Part shown: positions 6,101-22,989 of the stretch, in pieces | How the letters are laid out: each line of letters opens with the position of its first letter | Position numbering within the stretch: the stretch's first letter is position 1 | Assembly (NCBI GenBank): GCA_002712305.1 | Contig: PATE01000131.1 | Location: forward strand, 1-22,989 | Length of the DNA: 22,989 nt | Direction: 5' to 3' | DNA from: Gemmatimonadota bacterium | GTDB lineage: Bacteria > Latescibacterota > UBA2968 > UBA8231 | Made by a program: the position numbers and the translations under genes | The notes under the pieces: generated by a model | What the model saw: only the letters and a program-made list of their open reading frames with translations | What the model was told of the DNA's origin: nothing | Database searches by the model: none

Positions 6101-7051
6101 ATGTCCACACGAGTGAGGATCAGCACCATCGGCGCCCGCGCTGCCACAGGCAAACCCGCCCCCGACGGTGAAGCTGTGGCACGGATGATCGCCCATTGGG
6201 AAGGCCGATTCGCACAGATCCTACCCGATGAGCCCGACCTGATCGTCGTGCCCGAATGCTGCGACCGATATCCGCAGCATCCGCTGGCAGAGCGGCTGGC
6301 CTACTACCGGGAGCGCGGTGAACAGGTGGGGGATTACTTCGCTTCGGTAGCAAGAGACAATGGTTGCTACGTCGCCTATCCAGCTGTGCGCGAGGTGGAA
6401 GACGGAAGCTGGCGCAACTCGGTGCAGTTGTTCGATCGTGATGGCGAATCGATGGGTCACTACAACAAGAATCACGTCGTCATTACCGAAACCACGGAAG
6501 GTGGGATCCTCGCCGGCTGCGAGGCGCCGTTGTTTGAGTGCGACTTCGGCACCGTCGGTTGTGCGATCTGCTTCGATCTCAATTTCGCACCGATCCGCGA
6601 GGCCTACATCGATTCAAGTCCCGATCTGATTCTGTTTCCGTCCATGTATCATGGCGGGTTGATGCAAGCCTACTGGGCGTATTCCTGCAGATCACACCTG
6701 GCGACAGCGATCTGTGGCATGCCCAGTGGGGTGATCTCGCCCATCGGTGAGACCCTGGCCATGTCGACGAACTACTTCGACTACGTCACCTGCAATGTGA
6801 ATCTGGATTGTCAGGTTGCCCACCTCGACTTCAATCAGGCCGCCTTCCGCGCGATGAAGGAGAAGTACAGGACAGGCGTGACCATCACCGATCCGGGTTA
6901 TCTCGGATCCGTGCTGATTACGAGTGAAGATGAGGAAGTCAGTAGTGAGGATATGATTCGGGAATTCGACATCGAACTGCTCGATGACTACATGGATCGA
7001 TCCCTCGCCCACCGCGACGATCCAGAGAATCAGGCGCCAGAGGAACACTAG
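6101..7051 (+). CDS. Carbon-nitrogen hydrolase (nitrilase superfamily)
   Basis: A 316-residue soluble enzyme with the Glu-Lys-Cys triad of the nitrilase superfamily: Glu52 in Val-Val-Pro-Glu-Cys-Cys, Lys123 in Tyr-Asn-Lys-Asn-His, and nucleophile Cys157 in Cys-Ala-Ile-Cys-Phe-Asp-Leu-Asn-Phe. Family members hydrolyse amides, carbamoyl compounds or nitriles through a thioester intermediate. The branch and substrate cannot be named from sequence alone; an amidase or carbamoylase is likelier than a true nitrilase. The tail from about 270 is acidic (Glu-Asp-Glu-Glu) and may aid oligomerisation. The ATG is preceded by GGGAG about eight bases upstream. The gene is divergent from birA, with a 73-base gap between starts. 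Confidence 0.88.
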   Translation: MSTRVRISTIGARAATGKPAPDGEAVARMIAHWEGRFAQILPDEPDLIVVPECCDRYPQHPLAERLAYYRERGEQVGDYFASVARDNGCYVAYPAVREVEDGSWRNSVQLFDRDGESMGHYNKNHVVITETTEGGILAGCEAPLFECDFGTVGCAICFDLNFAPIREAYIDSSPDLILFPSMYHGGLMQAYWAYSCRSHLATAICGMPSGVISPIGETLAMSTNYFDYVTCNVNLDCQVAHLDFNQAAFRAMKEKYRTGVTITDPGYLGSVLITSEDEEVSSEDMIREFDIELLDDYMDRSLAHRDDPENQAPEEH

Positions 7052-7086
7052 CCGGGGAACAGTAGCCCGAGTAGCAGCCTCTCCAA

Positions 7087-7649
7087 CTACAGCGATTCAC
7101 CATAGAGGCCGTAGCGATGCACTGCATCGTACATGGCCACGACGTTCTGTGTAGGTGAATTGTCCTGTAGCTGGTGCGTTGGGGCAAAACAGTAGCCGCT
7201 TCCCGGCATCATCGTCTCCAGGGTCTGGCGACAAACGTCGATCACGGGGACCCTCCCCGAGGCGACGGGCCCTGCCGTACTGATACAGCCGTGGAAGGCC
7301 AGTCGGCAACTGCCCCTTCGTCGGCATCGTGCAATGGGAAGTCGCAGTAATCCCAATAGCCACCCGACTCGTGTTCGATCCAGCGGGTACGTCGACCCCA
7401 GACCGGATCGACGCGCCGGTCAGGCAACTCCGCGTGTAGGCGCGGGCCGGCATATCGACAGGCGACCTCGCGAAAATCGACACCCAATCGCTGTCGCAGC
7501 CCCTCGCTGTCACGCGGGTCGAGACCGAAGTGGGCCTTCAGGCGTGTGTCGATCCCCGGATTCGCGCTGTAGTTGATCGGGACACGATCGGTTTCCTGAT
7601 GCTGCAAGGTCGCCAACACCCGCTCGCGCGAACTCATCGACGAACTCAT
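7087..7649 (-). pseudogene. URO-D (uroporphyrinogen decarboxylase) family gene with internal deletion and frameshift
   Basis: The N-terminal ~118 residues (from ATG 7649) follow the URO-D superfamily opening: Ser-Ser-Arg-Glu-Arg-Val-Leu-Ala-Thr-Leu, a His-Gln-Glu-Thr-Asp-Arg-Val-Pro segment and Gly-Tyr-Trp-Asp-Tyr. Just after Ala-Asp-Trp-Pro (around 7280) the similarity stops, and this frame ends at 7242. The family's C-terminus then appears in another frame from about 7245 to 7087: Met-Pro-Gly-Ser-Gly-Tyr-Cys-Phe-Ala-Pro-Thr-His, then Gln-Asp-Asn-Ser-Pro and Met-Tyr-Asp-Ala. A normal member has about 350 residues, so roughly half is missing. GGGAGG five bases before ATG 7649 shows a formerly good start. 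Such proteins are often corrinoid methyltransferases or of unknown role, not heme enzymes. It lies downstream of the dehydratase on the same strand. Confidence 0.8.
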
Positions 7650-7734
7650 CCCCACCTCCCTTGTCCTGTTCGGTCAAACCTCTACCGGTCAATGAACCCA
7701 ACGGGTCGAGACAGGCAAATCTCACACGCGACCA

Positions 7735-8835
7735 TCAGTAGTCGGCGACCGAGCCATCCACGAGCCGGTTGTCCGGCCACTGGAACCGCTGATCCGGCTG
7801 CTCACCGACTTGCTGCGCCAGCGATTCGTCCATTTCGACACCAAGGCCGGGGCCCTCCGGTAGATTCACAAACCCCTCTTCGTCCATCGTCCACGTCTTG
7901 GTGGCGACCCCCTCGGCCATCTGCGACGTGTATCCCTCGTGGATGAGGAAGAACGGGACCGAGGCGGCCACGTGCAGACTGGCTGTCAGACCGAGGTAGG
8001 ACATGGTGCAATGGGGTGCGATCGGCACGTGGTGCGCTTCGGCCAATGCGGCGACCTTCTTCATCTGCGTGATCCCCCCTCCGTGGCCACAATCAGGCTG
8101 CAAGATGTCGATGACCTGGGCCTCCAGGATCTCGCGAACCTCCCAGATGCCGCGGTCGCGTTCGCCCGTGGCCAGGGGAACAGGAACCTCTTCGCGCACG
8201 CGTCGCATCACTTCGATGTTGCCCGGTACCCAGGCCTCCTCCAGAAACAGCAGGTCGTCGGATTTGAGATGCCCGGCAAACTGTCGCACCAGAGGGGGCG
8301 GCAACATGGAGTGGGCATCGAACATGACCGCTCCGTCCGGTCCGACCTTGGCCCGGGCCTGGCGAATCCGCTCGACGAGGGCCTCAACGTCGGCTGGTGA
8401 GCCCGTGTGGTAGTGGGCCGCTCCCGGGCTGATCTTGAGCGCCTTCGCGCTTGGATACATCCAGATCTTGTCACGACACGGTCCGCCCAGAAGGCGATAA
8501 ACCGGTACCCCATGAAGTTTCCCGGCAATATCCCACAGGGCCATGTCGATGCCTGAGATGACATGGGTCATCAGACCACCACCCCGGAGATTCCGATGGG
8601 ATCGATACATCCGCTGCCAGAGGTGTTCCACTCGAGTGGGATTCTCACCAACGATCATCTCACCCATCGATTCGGCCAGCTGGCAGGCGACGGGCGTGTT
8701 CATGTTGTTGATCTCGCCCCAACCGACGATCCCTACCGAGGTCTCCAGCTTCACATACCCCTTTCGACCCGCATTGATCGCCCTCAGATGGGTAACACGA
8801 ATGCTTGACGCGCGGTCCTCGACAGGATCAGCCAT
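7735..8835 (-). CDS. Mandelate racemase/muconate lactonizing enzyme family dehydratase
   Basis: A 366-residue enolase-superfamily enzyme with an N-terminal capping domain (to ~125) and a modified TIM barrel. Barrel residues fit acid-sugar dehydratases: Asp173 with His175 in Phe-Asp-Ala-His, Glu199 or Glu200 in Phe-Leu-Glu-Glu-Ala-Trp, Glu225 in Thr-Gly-Glu-Arg, and His275 in Ala-Pro-His-Cys. The Asp-x-His and Gly-Glu-Arg pattern is that of the galactonate/mannonate dehydratase group, which removes water from aldonic acids to give 2-keto-3-deoxy acids. The exact sugar acid is not predictable. It is probably the first gene of a two-gene minus-strand unit with the broken URO-D gene 85 bases downstream. 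A tandem 20-bp repeat lies 19-59 bases upstream of its start and may be its operator. Confidence 0.88.
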   Translation of the reverse strand: MADPVEDRASSIRVTHLRAINAGRKGYVKLETSVGIVGWGEINNMNTPVACQLAESMGEMIVGENPTRVEHLWQRMYRSHRNLRGGGLMTHVISGIDMALWDIAGKLHGVPVYRLLGGPCRDKIWMYPSAKALKISPGAAHYHTGSPADVEALVERIRQARAKVGPDGAVMFDAHSMLPPPLVRQFAGHLKSDDLLFLEEAWVPGNIEVMRRVREEVPVPLATGERDRGIWEVREILEAQVIDILQPDCGHGGGITQMKKVAALAEAHHVPIAPHCTMSYLGLTASLHVAASVPFFLIHEGYTSQMAEGVATKTWTMDEEGFVNLPEGPGLGVEMDESLAQQVGEQPDQRFQWPDNRLVDGSVADY

Positions 8836-8894: not shown

Positions 8895-8961
8895 GAGGGC
8901 AAACTAGCCGCCGCCGCCTTCAACACAAGGGTGCGGAAGGCGCACAGTGCATCCGTTAAAG

Positions 8962-9052
8962 GGGGTAAGGGGACATTCCCGTGCACGGGATACCCCGGTG
9001 GATTTGGGGCATCTGCCCTGAATACCGCCCTCCTTCCACCCAAACAAGGAGG
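8962..9052 (+). promoter_or_regulatory. Structured leader: consecutive hairpins ending in a Shine-Dalgarno-sequestering stem
   Basis: Three adjoining foldable units. (1) GGGGTA 8962-8967 pairs with TACCCC 8991-8996 around a hairpin TCCCG-TGCA-CGGGA at 8977-8990. (2) GGTGG 8997-9001 pairs with CCGCC 9025-9029 (one G-U) around GGGC-ATCT-GCCC at 9007-9018. (3) CCTCCTT 9029-9035 pairs perfectly with AAGGAGG 9046-9052, the Shine-Dalgarno of the 14-codon ORF at 9060. Position 9029 is shared by units 2 and 3, so they could compete. A further hairpin, GTGCG-GAAGG-CGCAC, lies at 8931-8945. I recognise no known riboswitch class. GC-rich DNA forms hairpins by chance, so unit 3 is the best-supported part. 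Confidence 0.5.
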
Positions 9053-9059
9053 TTTCCGA

Positions 9060-9104
9060 ATGTCGCGTAACGATTGCCTGACTCTGTCGAGGCGCCAGGG
9101 CTAA
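9060..9104 (+). CDS. 14-residue micropeptide or leader peptide ORF
   Basis: ATG to TAA encodes MSRNDCLTLSRRQG. The Shine-Dalgarno AAGGAGG at 9046-9052, seven bases before ATG, is one of the best in the window, yet it forms the 3' arm of a perfect 7-bp stem. An intrinsic terminator follows 37 bases after the stop. Strong initiation site, short frame and terminator together suggest either a leader peptide for attenuation of the cluster from 9338 or a small independent gene. No run of one amino acid points to classical amino-acid attenuation; the peptide has one Cys and a basic Ser-Arg-Arg-Gln-Gly end. I do not recognise the sequence. Confidence 0.45.
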   Translation: MSRNDCLTLSRRQG

Positions 9105-9140
9105 CACAGCCTGATTCGTGCCCGCAGAGTCACAAGGGCA

Positions 9141-9180
9141 GAAGGGGGTCGCCTCAATCGAGGCGGCTCCCTTTCTTTAT
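9141..9180 (+). terminator. Intrinsic terminator after the 14-codon ORF
   Basis: A 15-bp stem with a four-base AATC loop (9156-9159): CGCCTC 9150-9155 pairs with GAGGCG 9160-9165, and the stem extends outward through 9141-9149 with 9166-9174 including three G-U pairs. It is followed by a T-rich stretch (TTTCTTTATT) on the plus strand only. No large plus-strand gene ends upstream, so it must end a short transcript from 8836-9140 or act as an attenuator. Confidence 0.65.
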
Positions 9181-9284
9181 TCTCCGAAATTTCTTTACAT
9201 AGTGAGACTGTAACTTTGCCGTAACTCCCTGGATAATATGAGTCTTCCGCAGTTTTGGTTGACCCCAGAGATCAGATCCAGAGC

Positions 9285-9337: not shown

Positions 9338-9550
9338 ATGACTGAATGGGCAGGCGTCGGCCTGTTGCGCGCAGCCAAGAATGGCAATGCCCGCAATGTC
9401 CGCCTCATGCTCACCCGTGGCTTCGATGTGAATGCCGCGGATGAGACAGGGGCGACGGCGCTGATGCACTCCGCCAACAATGGCCACCTTGAGTCCGCTC
9501 AAGCACTGCTTGAAGCTGGGGCAGATGCCGAGGATCGCGCGATTGGATGA
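9338..9550 (+). CDS. Small ankyrin-repeat protein
   Basis: A 70-residue product with two ankyrin repeats. The first runs Gly-Leu-Leu-Arg-Ala-Ala-Lys-Asn-Gly-Asn through Phe-Asp-Val-Asn-Ala-Ala-Asp-Glu; the second runs Gly-Ala-Thr-Ala-Leu-Met-His-Ser-Ala-Asn-Asn-Gly-His-Leu through Leu-Leu-Glu-Ala-Gly-Ala-Asp. Ankyrin repeats bind proteins; two is a minimal number. There is no signal peptide. The end overlaps the start of the TPR gene by about 26 bases in another frame, so this could be the N-terminal domain of a formerly continuous ankyrin-membrane-TPR protein split by a frameshift. No clear Shine-Dalgarno precedes ATG 9338; GATAAT at 9232-9237 is a weak -10 candidate. Confidence 0.6.
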   Translation: MTEWAGVGLLRAAKNGNARNVRLMLTRGFDVNAADETGATALMHSANNGHLESAQALLEAGADAEDRAIG

Positions 9551-10868
9551 GTCCGCCGCCACCATCCGTCGTGTCCTGCGCAATCTTTCGCTCGGGCTGA
9601 CGGGACTCACCGTTGTCCTCACCATCATCTCGGGCCCCGCAGGTCCTGCTGGTCTTGACGCCCTTTCGGTGTTGCGTACGCCTCTCATGTTGGCCAGCGT
9701 AGCCGGCTGGGTCGCCTACGTGGCCGTGCGTTCGGTGATCGGGGCTCGCTCTCAACAACGCGGATCCAGAGAAACGATGACCGTCGAGGGGCCTGCGGAG
9801 GAATTGGTCCAGAAGGCGACGGCCATCAGTCTCTCACAGCAACCCGACCACGAGCCTGGCGGAGAGGCTGAAAAGAGCTACGAGCAGGCCGAATCGTTCT
9901 ATTCGACGTATCAGTACCCCGCCGCGGCCGAGCAATACGCCGCTTCTGTGGAGGCCCGCCCAACGCTACCGGGTTATCTGAGCTGGGGGGCGGCGCTGAT
10001 CAACTGCTCCGATTTCGGCCAGGCAGAGGAAGTGTTGAGCATCGGTCTACAGATGGCGACGCGCCTCGAACGGAAGGACTTCCGTGCCGCTTGCCTGGCG
10101 AATCTCGCCGTCGTGCGCAATCGTCTCGGTCGCATTGATGCAGCTCAGACTACCTGCGAAGAGGCGCTGGACCTGTTTCGCATGATCGGAGATAGCCACG
10201 GCCAGGCGGATGTGACCCTGACCCTTGGCGCGGTGCACAGTCATCGTGCTGAATTCGACCAGGCGGGGGCGGCCTATGAGGCGGCTCTGAAGCGTTTTCA
10301 AGCTGTCGGCAATGATGTGGGGAAAGCCAATGCCCGTGGAAACATGGGCAATCTAGCCATGCAACACGAAGAACTGGAAGAGGCCCTGTCCCATCATAGG
10401 GTGGCACTGAAACTGCACGAACAGGTCGGCAATCCACTGGGCCGGGCAAATGCTCTGGCCAACATCGGCAATGTCCGGTTTCGCATGGGGCGACCGAAGG
10501 AGGCGCGTCAATCCTACGATGCGGCGCTCGAGATCTATCGCCAGATCGAAGTACCCCTGGGATTGGCGAGTGTCCTGGGCAATCTGGGCAATGTGCTGTT
10601 TCGGACGGGCGAACACGATGAAGCGCTGCAGACCTACGAGCAGACCCTTGAGGTCCATCGGCGTATTGGCAATGTCCTGGGGCAGGCAAACACGCTGACC
10701 AACACGGGTAGTCTGCTGTCGAGAATGGAGCGACGCGGCGAGGCGCTGGAGGCACTGCACGAGGCGCGTCGATTGTTCGAGAGGGTTGAGGCTCGGACTC
10801 GGGGCGCTCAGGCTGCCGCCTCCCTGATCGAAAAGCTCGAGCGTGCCGAAGTGTCCGATGGGAACTGA
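9525..10868 (+). CDS. Membrane-anchored tetratricopeptide repeat (TPR) protein
   Basis: 447 residues from ATG 9525 (TTG 9543 is an alternative start). The N-terminal ~75 residues hold two hydrophobic segments, Leu-Ser-Leu-Gly-Leu-Thr-Gly-Leu-Thr-Val-Val-Leu and Leu-Met-Leu-Ala-Ser-Val-Ala-Gly-Trp-Val-Ala-Tyr-Val, likely two membrane helices. A polar linker follows, then about eight TPR units. The last five or six have the 40-residue LGN/kinesin-light-chain-like spacing with Gly-Asn, Leu-Gly-x-Ala, Asn-x-Gly-Asn and Ala-Leu positions; at DNA level, Gly-Asn-type codons recur every 120 bases near 10308, 10428, 10548 and 10668. Such arrays are protein-binding scaffolds. It overlaps the ankyrin gene upstream and the PhyH gene downstream (11 bases), indicating one operon. 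No enzymatic domain is visible. Confidence 0.82.
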   Translation: MPRIARLDESAATIRRVLRNLSLGLTGLTVVLTIISGPAGPAGLDALSVLRTPLMLASVAGWVAYVAVRSVIGARSQQRGSRETMTVEGPAEELVQKATAISLSQQPDHEPGGEAEKSYEQAESFYSTYQYPAAAEQYAASVEARPTLPGYLSWGAALINCSDFGQAEEVLSIGLQMATRLERKDFRAACLANLAVVRNRLGRIDAAQTTCEEALDLFRMIGDSHGQADVTLTLGAVHSHRAEFDQAGAAYEAALKRFQAVGNDVGKANARGNMGNLAMQHEELEEALSHHRVALKLHEQVGNPLGRANALANIGNVRFRMGRPKEARQSYDAALEIYRQIEVPLGLASVLGNLGNVLFRTGEHDEALQTYEQTLEVHRRIGNVLGQANTLTNTGSLLSRMERRGEALEALHEARRLFERVEARTRGAQAAASLIEKLERAEVSDGN

Positions 10869-20414: not shown

Positions 20415-21036
20415 GATGCCCCCGCAACGGTCTGTTGCGATCGTACGTGCTCGACATGCTGCATCCACAGCAGCAGGACGGCGACGATCATCACGCCCTG
20501 TGCGATCTGATCATGCGCGACGTCGATCCAGTCGGGATGACGGGCCATGTATACAGCAACCCCAGAATTCGTACGAGGTTGAGCCCGAACAGAAGGGGCA
20601 AATCGCGAAACAATGCGCGCAGTCGAGTCGGCCAGGACGCTGGCAGGGCGAGGATGCCGGCGATCATGAGAAAGAGCGCTTCGATCCCATTGCAGCCTCC
20701 GCGAATCACGACGGTTGTGCTGAGCGGCTGATCCTTGCTATCGGCAAGCGTCGAGGGCACCGTTCCCAGGGTGATGTCGCCGCGCCGTTCGACTTCGAAG
20801 GGCAAAACGCGATTTCCCAGGCCCTCGGCGGCGATCGTCACCAGCCGCGTGAAGGGTACATCGATGATCTGCCCATCCAACAAGCGGCGCTCCGCCTGAT
20901 ACAGCTCGTCCAGAAGTGCCAGAATCAGCAGGAACAGGCCGATCACGCGGCCAGCCCGAAAGCCTGGGCCTACGGCTAGGTTGCCGGCTACTGCGCTCTG
21001 CGACGGGGCATCACCGGTATCTGTAGTGGTCAGCAT
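20411..21036 (-). pseudogene. xrtH: Exosortase H, interrupted by a -1-type frameshift
   Basis: Exosortases are membrane cysteine transpeptidases that process PEP-CTERM-like sorting tails; XrtH handles IPTLxxWG-CTERM-type tails. From ATG 21036 the frame shows a membrane helix (Val-Ile-Gly-Leu-Phe-Leu-Leu-Ile-Leu), catalytic Cys115 in Arg-Gly-Gly-Cys-Asn-Gly-Ile-Glu-Ala, Pro-Ala-Ser-Trp-Pro-x-Arg and Arg156 in Asn-Leu-Val-Arg-Ile-Leu, then degenerates after Tyr162 (20551). The missing end lies in another frame from ATG 20548: Ala-Arg-His-Pro-Asp-Trp-Ile-Asp-Val-Ala-His-Asp-Gln-Ile with the catalytic His, then a last membrane helix and stop at 20411. One base appears lost in the TATACATG stretch. 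The joined protein would have about 208 residues and all three catalytic residues. It may be recent decay, programmed shifting or an assembly error. Confidence 0.8.
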
Positions 21037-21051
21037 TGGTTTTCTGTCGAT

Positions 21052-21071
21052 ATATCAAGAAATCTTGATAT
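21052..21071. promoter_or_regulatory. Perfect 20-bp inverted repeat (ArsR/SahR-type operator)
   Basis: Arms ATATCAAGA (21052-21060) and TCTTGATAT (21063-21071) are separated by AA and pair perfectly over nine bases. The site overlaps the -35 box of the regulator's promoter and lies 15 bases upstream of the xrtH start on the other strand. Palindromes of this type are bound by dimeric ArsR-family repressors, and the first downstream gene encodes one. Confidence 0.85.
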
Positions 21072-21093
21072 TTACCTTGTATACCCGTATACT
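21065..21093 (+). promoter_or_regulatory. Sigma-70-type promoter of the regulator-ahcY unit
   Basis: TTGATA (21065-21070) and TATACT (21088-21093) are separated by exactly 17 bases, each matching consensus at five of six positions. Transcription should start near 21100, giving a leader of about 22 bases that includes nine consecutive A residues (21107-21115). The -35 lies in the right arm of the operator, so bound repressor would block polymerase. Confidence 0.8.
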
Positions 21094-21121
21094 CCTTCTG
21101 GACCTCAAAAAAAAAGACACC

Positions 21122-22147
21122 ATGCCCGAACCCCTCCAAATCCACAAAGCTCTGGCTGACGAAACGCGTCTGCGACTGATGCGTCTCCTCGGTCGTTCGC
21201 CGCTCAATGTCAACGAGATCCTCTCGATCCTGCAAATGGGGCAGAGTCGAATCTCCAGACACCTGCGGATTCTGGCCGAAGCCGATCTGGTCACGCGTCG
21301 ACGCGAAGGCACGTGGATCTACTACGAATCTCACGCCGAGAGCGACTGGCCTATGGTGAGGGATACACTGTCTCTGCTCTCGGACCACGAGCGCGAGTTG
21401 CCTTCCTATGAACAGGACATGCAGCGGCTGGAGGAGGCCATCGAGGGGCGCCGTCAGCAGACCCTCTCCTTCTTCGACAGCCTCACCGATCAACAGGAGG
21501 CCGGTGAACGTCTCAGCCCCGACGGGCATACCTATCGCGAGGTCGCACTGTCGCTGCTGCCCCAGGCGCCCGAACGAGTGCTCGATCTCGGTACCGGGTC
21601 AGGCCTGCTGTTGCCGTCGCTGCTCGATCGTGCCGACCAGGTGATCGCTGTCGATGCGTCGACGACGATGCTGCAGTTGGCGCGGCAGACGGCTGGTAAA
21701 GCTGCCGTGGATCGATGCGAGTTTCGTCTTGGAGATCTGGAACACCTGCCCGTCGCCGATGGTGAGGTCGACGCGGTCGTGGCCTGCATGGTTCTGCATC
21801 ACGTGCCCCGACCTCAGGCGGCCATCACTGAAGCTTGGCGCGCTTTGGCCCCCGGTGGCGAACTCACCGTGGTGGAGCTTGCCCAACACGAAGACGAGTC
21901 GATGCGAGAGTTGCACGCTGATCTGTGGCTCGGATTCCGCCCCATCGAGATGCGCCGCTGGCTCACGCAAGCTGGTTTTGAGGTGACCGAAGGCGAACCA
22001 CGAACCGAAGACAATCAACCCACACTCCCACTCATCACTTTCCGAGGAACCAAACCATGCTCAAAACGACCCACAAGACGTCAAAACCAAAGCGGAACGG
22101 CCAAAACGGCCACAACGGCAAGCGGAAGAAAGCGGACTACAAAGTAG
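21122..22147 (+). CDS. ArsR-family regulator fused to a SAM-dependent methyltransferase (SahR-like)
   Basis: 341 residues from ATG 21122. Residues 5-70 are an ArsR winged helix ([13 protein letters not shown] at 8-20; recognition helix Gly-Gln-Ser-Arg-Ile-Ser-Arg-His-Leu at 40-48). A coiled region (80-120) links to a class I methyltransferase with motif I Val-Leu-Asp-Leu-Gly-Thr-Gly-Ser-Gly (153-161), acidic Asp178, and Met-Val-Leu-His-His-Val-Pro near 223-229. The fusion would let SAM or SAH occupancy control DNA binding. It sits behind a palindrome overlapping its own promoter and directly before ahcY, so autoregulated control of SAH recycling is the likely role. Whether the domain still methylates anything is unknown. 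The last ~30 residues, rich in Lys, Arg and Thr, overlap ahcY and may be non-conserved. Confidence 0.88.
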
Positions 22148-22989
22148 CCGACATCGGTCTGGCCGAATGGGGCCGCAAGGAGATCCGCCTCGCCGAGCGC
22201 GAGATGCCGGGTCTCATGGCCCTGCGCGACGAATATGGAAAGAGCAAACCCCTGAAGGGGGCCCGCATCGCTGGCTCTCTGCATATGACGATTCAGACAG
22301 CGGTTCTCATCGAGACCCTGCAGGCCCTCGGCGCTCAGGTGCGTTGGGCGTCGTGTAACATTTTCTCCACGCAGGATCACGCCGCCGCTGCCATCGCCGC
22401 TGCCGGCACGCCCGTGTTCGCCTGGAAAGGGGAGACGGAAGAGGAGTACTGGTGGTGCACCGATCAGACCCTCAACTGGGGCTTCGAAGGGCCGAACATG
22501 ATCCTCGACGACGGTGGCGATCTGACCAAGTGGGTGCACGACAAGCGCCCGGATCTGCTGCGGGCCATCCAGGGTACATCTGAGGAAACGACCACCGGTG
22601 TCCACAATCTGAATCACATGCTGGCGGAGGGGACCCTGAAGATCCCTGCGATCAACGTGAACGACTCGGTAACGAAGTCGAAATTCGATAACCTCTATGG
22701 CTGTCGTGAGTCGCTGCTCGACGGGATCAAGCGTGCCACCGACATCATGACGGCTGGCAAGACCGTCGTCGTGGCTGGCTACGGCGACGTGGGCAAGGGG
22801 TCGGTCGGTTCCATGAAGGGTTTTGGTGCTCGTGTCATCGTGACCGAAGTCGACCCCATCTGCGCCCTGCAGGCGTCGATGGAGGGCTTCCAGGTGGAAA
22901 CCCTCGAGAACGTGGTCGAAACCGCCGACGTCTTCGTCACCACCACTGGCAATTTCGACATCATCACGGCTTCACACATGGCGCGGATG
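22057..22989 (+). CDS. ahcY: Adenosylhomocysteinase (S-adenosyl-L-homocysteine hydrolase), 3' truncated by window
   Basis: The first 311 residues, from ATG 22057 with GAGGA about eight bases upstream; the frame runs off the window. The enzyme reversibly splits SAH into homocysteine and adenosine using bound NAD+, clearing the inhibitor left by methyltransferases. Family motifs include [11 protein letters not shown], Leu-His-Met-Thr-Ile-Gln-Thr, [14 protein letters not shown], Asp-Asp-Gly-Gly-Asp, Thr-Ser-Glu-Glu-Thr-Thr-Thr-Gly-Val, and the NAD-binding Gly-Tyr-Gly-Asp-Val-Gly-Lys-Gly. A basic N-terminal extension of about 25 residues (Lys/Asn/Gly-rich) precedes the usual start and overlaps the regulator gene by 91 bases. 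Co-transcription with the regulator is expected. Confidence 0.96.

Follow-up and report, generated by a model that had tools for sequence, protein, structure and literature searches.

A conserved, structured candidate small RNA with a sequestered Shine-Dalgarno sequence and a 13–14-codon open reading frame in an uncultured bacterial lineage

The window analysed here is the whole 22,989-nucleotide stretch of contig PATE01000131.1 from a Gemmatimonadota bacterium (GTDB phylum Latescibacterota). Within it, a discrete block of ~232 bases (8946–9177) lies between two ordinary genes. The MR/enolase gene on its left starts at 8835 and runs in the opposite direction. The ankyrin gene on its right (9338–9550) is cut to 70 codons; over the first 63 residues, its product shares 97% identity with an ankyrin protein of at least 458 residues in the relative G001, and the end of the gene is overlapped by a TPR ORF (9480–10868) in a different frame. 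This ankyrin/TPR arrangement represents either a rearrangement of recent date or a join made during assembly. Elsewhere in the window, a minus-strand ORF at 6939–7655 resembles by eye the start of a uroporphyrinogen-decarboxylase-like protein, appears broken across frames, and is probably a pseudogene. At 20981–22989, an ORF resembling, by eye, a fusion of an ArsR-type regulator with a methyltransferase overlaps the start of an apparent S-adenosylhomocysteine hydrolase gene.

The block was singled out by a sequence-only reading that described consecutive hairpins, a hidden Shine-Dalgarno (SD) sequence, a 14-codon ORF, and a terminator, all of which direct reading and folding place where that reading had put them (Table 1). 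Although the elements it described are real, the unit itself begins with a conserved box at 8946, 16 bases 5′ of the first hairpin then recognised. The terminator is confined to the plus strand, as proposed; the minus strand has just a weak 5-pair candidate elsewhere (8931–8945). Because the MR/enolase gene runs the opposite way, the left-hand gene does not explain the terminator, in agreement with the claim that no larger gene accounts for it.

Table 1. Elements of the conserved block, in window coordinates.
Feature	Position	Strand	Basis
Conserved 5′ box AGTGCATCCGTTAAAG (consensus AGTGCATCCGWTANAG)	8946–8961	+	Identical in 4/4 homologues
Hairpin P1, GGGG...CCCC, inner CCCG/CGGG	8969–8996	+	Minimum-energy fold
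Hairpin P2	8997–9029	+	Folds in 4/4; 91.7% of cells paired
Hairpin P3, CUCCUU/AAGGAG, sequesters the Shine-Dalgarno sequence	9030–9051, extending to 9029–9052	+	Core of 5 pairs invariant in 4/4
Perfect Shine-Dalgarno sequence AAGGAGG	9046–9052	+	Direct read
14-codon ORF MSRNDCLTLSRRQG with TAA (9102–9104)	9060–9104	+	ATG, frame, and TAA kept in 4/4
Hairpin P4, GCCYGAC...GUC..GGGC; apical stem CAGGGCU/AGCCUG (9096–9113); ORF stop in loop	9076–9139	+	RNAalifold consensus
Intrinsic-terminator-like hairpin (15 pairs, stem 9141–9174) with T-rich tail CTTTATTCTC	9141–9183	+	

The region from 8950 to 9190 folds at −114.4 kcal/mol, compared with −84.7 ± 5.5 kcal/mol for 200 dinucleotide shuffles, none of which was as stable (z = −5.4), and P1, P2, and P3 are all present in the minimum-energy fold. 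The three homologues described below gave shuffle z-scores of −3.6, −5.2, and −3.0. Consensus fold energy was evaluated against column shuffles that preserve the gap pattern and the conservation class: three versions of the alignment gave z = −5.3, −6.6, and −9.2, with 0 of 300 shuffles as good, and the minus strand gave z-scores of lower magnitude (−3.9, −4.7). The SD hairpin and the apical stem of P4 show zero variation among the four homologues. The basal and middle parts of P4 have 94% and 75% of cells paired, respectively; P1 retains its outer GGG/CCC pairing in the relatives with a variable inner part; and the terminator stem is kept in the RNAalifold consensus, where some pairs of its upper portion have changed. 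Two pairs at the base of the P2 stem changed on both sides (A-U/G-C and G-C/A-U), but this number was reached in 175 of 500 shuffles and, with four sequences, is not significant alone. As covariation is thin, the case for structure rests on the conserved energy together with a slid-partner control, in which 91% of cells were paired versus 33–48%.

Three further genomes of the family each carry one homologue, making four sequences from two genera. The blastn search suggested by the sequence-only reading covered 100 relatives and recovered the block from one genome of the window's genus (G001) and from two of a second genus in the family (G005 and G012); below, L002 shares the window's genus, and L003 and L004 denote the G005 and G012 sequences. 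Two covariance models built from these four sequences returned homologues in the four genomes (E-values of 1e-27 to 1e-34), and the blastn recovery is independent of the models. With the models, no further genome carrying the RNA was found in the family, class, or phylum (64 genomes) or among 386 relatives across the domain, and plasmids and phages gave no match. Among viral contigs, the 26 matches to one motif are close to chance expectation and none fits the model; a second motif had no viral match. A candidate degenerate copy in G015 C80 proved to be matches to the two strands of a single 48-base palindrome, and candidates L091 and L092 were rejected with E-values of 0.3–0.5 and no SD-ATG arrangement.

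A scan of 4227 Rfam families produced no match at the gathering cut-off in the window or in L002–L004, and no more than chance-level matches at E-values up to 10; neither threshold gave an antitoxin RNA at this locus, and the window contains no tRNA or tmRNA. The homologues, the shuffle controls, and the lack of an Rfam match support the proposal of a structured RNA outside the known classes, with a hidden SD, a short ORF, and its own terminator. The sequence-only reading had offered to be judged by conservation in relatives and by the Rfam search, and neither refuted it, with covariation among four sequences adding little.

The limits of the unit are sharp. Between-genus alignments made with long flanking sequence begin, in three of four cases, exactly where the 5′ box begins, and in the other case 3 bases earlier; three of the four end at the 3′ end of the terminator, and the L002–L003 alignment ends ~7 bases beyond. 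The box has one exact copy in each of the four genomes, always at the RNA locus, and it is probably a promoter element or the first bases of the RNA. No sigma-70 promoter was recognised at the locus. A sigma-28 (flagellar-type) promoter was considered since CCGATA fits, and it was rejected by eye because a correctly spaced TAAA occurs in 0 of 4 sequences. In L003, the box and a 16-base imperfect inverted repeat of it lie at 1125–1140 and about 836–851 on the minus strand; in G012, the gene immediately upstream of the RNA (L004 642–1511) resembles an ABC transporter split over several frames.

Sharp ends in differing surroundings could also mark a short mobile cassette or its remnant instead of a functional RNA gene, and the inverted repeat past the L003 terminator fits that idea (3 of 500 shuffles were as good). 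However, the repeat is absent from the other three homologues, each genome has one copy, the position near the MR/enolase gene is kept, and the structure and SD-ATG arrangement persist despite 66–70% between-genus identity over the block. We therefore regard a cassette as highly improbable; a multicopy repeat or MITE was rejected on the single copy per genome and the confinement of the inverted repeat to L003.

CCTCCTT (9029–9035) is a perfect 7-bp complement of AAGGAGG (9046–9052), confirming the claim that a perfect stem hides the SD; base 9029 also closes the preceding stem. Seven bases separate the SD from the ATG at 9060, and this spacing is 6–8 in all four homologues, with an ORF of 13–14 codons. 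The linker after the SD is variable, and the ATG is its sole invariant trinucleotide. AAGGAGG precedes a start codon once in the window, and the 13 other putative starts that were checked have a weaker SD or none (two table rows not at a start codon were dropped). Since the assembly has no 16S gene, complementarity of the SD to the organism's own rRNA is assumed. In the four full-length homologues, the SD has a predicted openness of 0.07, 0.08, 0.51 (L003), and 0.24, so the lock looks tight in one genus and less so in the other, with weak sequestration in L003.

The encoded peptides (MSRNDCLTLSRRQG, MPNYKCPTMSRRQG, MLKIERPTMLRHQG, and MLSITRPTMSRQG) are short, polar, and basic by eye. If this were a regulated micropeptide gene, its product would be the 13–14-residue peptide itself; the ATG, frame, stop, and optimal strong SD are kept in 4/4, the frame is maintained up to the invariant TAA with a single whole codon as the sole internal length change, and the C-terminal halves are alike (PTMSRRQG, LTLSRRQG, PTMLRHQG, PTMSRQG). 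Against this, codons 2–5 change freely, and the varying columns number 6, 7, and 5 at codon positions 1, 2, and 3, with no third-position excess over the 13 codons and four sequences, which points to selection on the RNA rather than on the peptide. The kept half of the peptide overlaps P4, and its conservation is thus explicable without the peptide. A micropeptide gene is consequently quite unlikely, and of the earlier suggestion of a self-contained micropeptide transcript, the self-contained RNA is favoured while the micropeptide is weakened, as its amino acids are not conserved in a protein-like manner.

The sequence-only reading had alternatively proposed a riboswitch-like switch attenuating the ankyrin/TPR/PhyH cluster. 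Trp-type leader-peptide attenuators have a short ORF, successive hairpins, and a terminator with a T-rich tail. The anatomy here is similar, with an SD and 14-codon ORF, a hairpin series, a T-tailed intrinsic terminator, and a same-strand gene that starts 44–166 bases past the terminator in 4/4. As a cis-acting, translation-coupled leader, it would work through a ribosome at the SD that frees CCUCCUU to pair with AAGGGGG of the terminator 5′ arm, so that transcription passes into the downstream gene. The competing CCUCCUU:AAGGGGG pairing is predicted at 0.95–0.98 for the window transcript at lengths that include just the 5′ arm of the terminator and transiently, at 0.94 for one length, in L002, but at 0.00–0.11 in L003 and L004, where it is not predicted; as a conserved antiterminator this genus-specific pairing was rejected. 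A classical region 2:3 antiterminator was also rejected, there being no adequate complement by eye.

The downstream gene is not constant either. An ankyrin gene follows the RNA in the window and L002, and an aldo/keto reductase gene follows it in L003 and L004, with the same MR/enolase gene nearby in both genera. In G015 the reductase and enolase genes are adjacent, with a methyltransferase-like ORF (named by eye) between them and the RNA absent, and the G000 reductase homologue lies on another contig without the single-copy RNA. A downstream gene that changes, and a reductase beside the enolase without the RNA in a relative, make a leader of the ankyrin/TPR/PhyH cluster unlikely; unlike trp-type attenuators, the ORF also has no run of one regulatory codon or amino acid. 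GC content falls to 40% directly past the terminator, which fits the expectation of a separate ankyrin promoter. The segment 9160–9250 (GC ~40% versus 61% for the window), in which GGATAATATG and GGATTATATG are kept in the same-genus relative, is a possible candidate for it. A conserved unit, a changing downstream gene, and a genus-limited competing fold point towards an independent RNA; a leader is the main rival.

The invariant CCUCCU, which is followed by an unpaired C-rich loop, raises another alternative, in which a trans-acting anti-SD small RNA would pair through CGYCCUCCUNCCACC with SD regions of target mRNAs and the internal AAGGAGG would be the lock. The alpha-r14 small RNAs act via CCUCCUCCC motifs, and in alpha-r14/NfeR1 RNAs these motifs occur unpaired and in three copies (PMC10746234). 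The likeness lies in an invariant CCUCCU-type motif amid variable stems; here, however, there is a single motif, and in the consensus fold it is not free but paired to the AGGAGG of the internal SD. Most window genes have weak SDs, and anti-SD action leaves the correctly spaced ATG unexplained. We consider this reading very unlikely.

SgrS/SgrT and SR1 are dual-function small RNAs. Like such RNAs, the block would be an independent small transcript with a terminator and an internal small ORF; it has a terminator-like stem and sharp ends, and no promoter was recognised. Their peptides are longer and functional, as in VcdRP, whose 29-residue VcdP peptide is functional (PMC8672173), whereas here protein-like conservation is lacking and the SD sits closed within an invariant hairpin. 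In the AapA3 type I toxin mRNA, the SD is held in a local hairpin by a short anti-SD that lies a few bases 5′ of it (PMC6733600). The present RNA shares this local trapping by a nearby upstream anti-SD in a small structured mRNA, but its 13–14-residue peptide is polar, a hydrophobic membrane helix is absent from all four peptides by eye, and no antisense RNA gene was seen. By these comparisons, the RNA resembles SD-locked small mRNAs and dual-function small RNAs, yet lacks a defining feature of each.

Taken together, the original observation is correct and goes beyond chance: the block is conserved and single-copy, has a predicted fold and a fixed SD-ATG-stop order, and has no fixed downstream gene. 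We infer that it is transcribed and translated and has a trigger and a target. The reading we prefer, at about even odds (roughly 0.5) given four sequences and an unrecognised promoter, is a stand-alone small RNA gene, ~215 bases long, that has a start region and an intrinsic terminator of its own and whose 13–14-codon ORF has a strong SD locked in an invariant hairpin. The transcript would normally be closed at the SD hairpin, which may open through a pairing partner, through a protein, or transiently in the course of transcription. The opened SD would load a ribosome that reads to the TAA in the P4 loop and in doing so melts the 5′ strand of P4, exposing different parts of the RNA. Selection would then favour the fold of the RNA and the translation event itself, not the peptide.

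A limited literature search turned up no structured-RNA study of this uncultured lineage, from which the block now provides an RNA family that has clear limits and is absent from Rfam. More speculatively, and at odds that make it doubtful, it may be a new kind of RNA regulator that is switched by translating a 13–14-codon ORF with no meaning of its own: the SD/anti-SD lock would gate the ribosome, and passage to the stop in the loop would refold the RNA, whatever the peptide. Invariant initiation signals combined with a free peptide provide a sharp test of whether short-ORF translation can regulate an RNA irrespective of the encoded product, and they indicate that a strong, locked ribosome-binding site can persist where the sites of neighbouring genes are weak.
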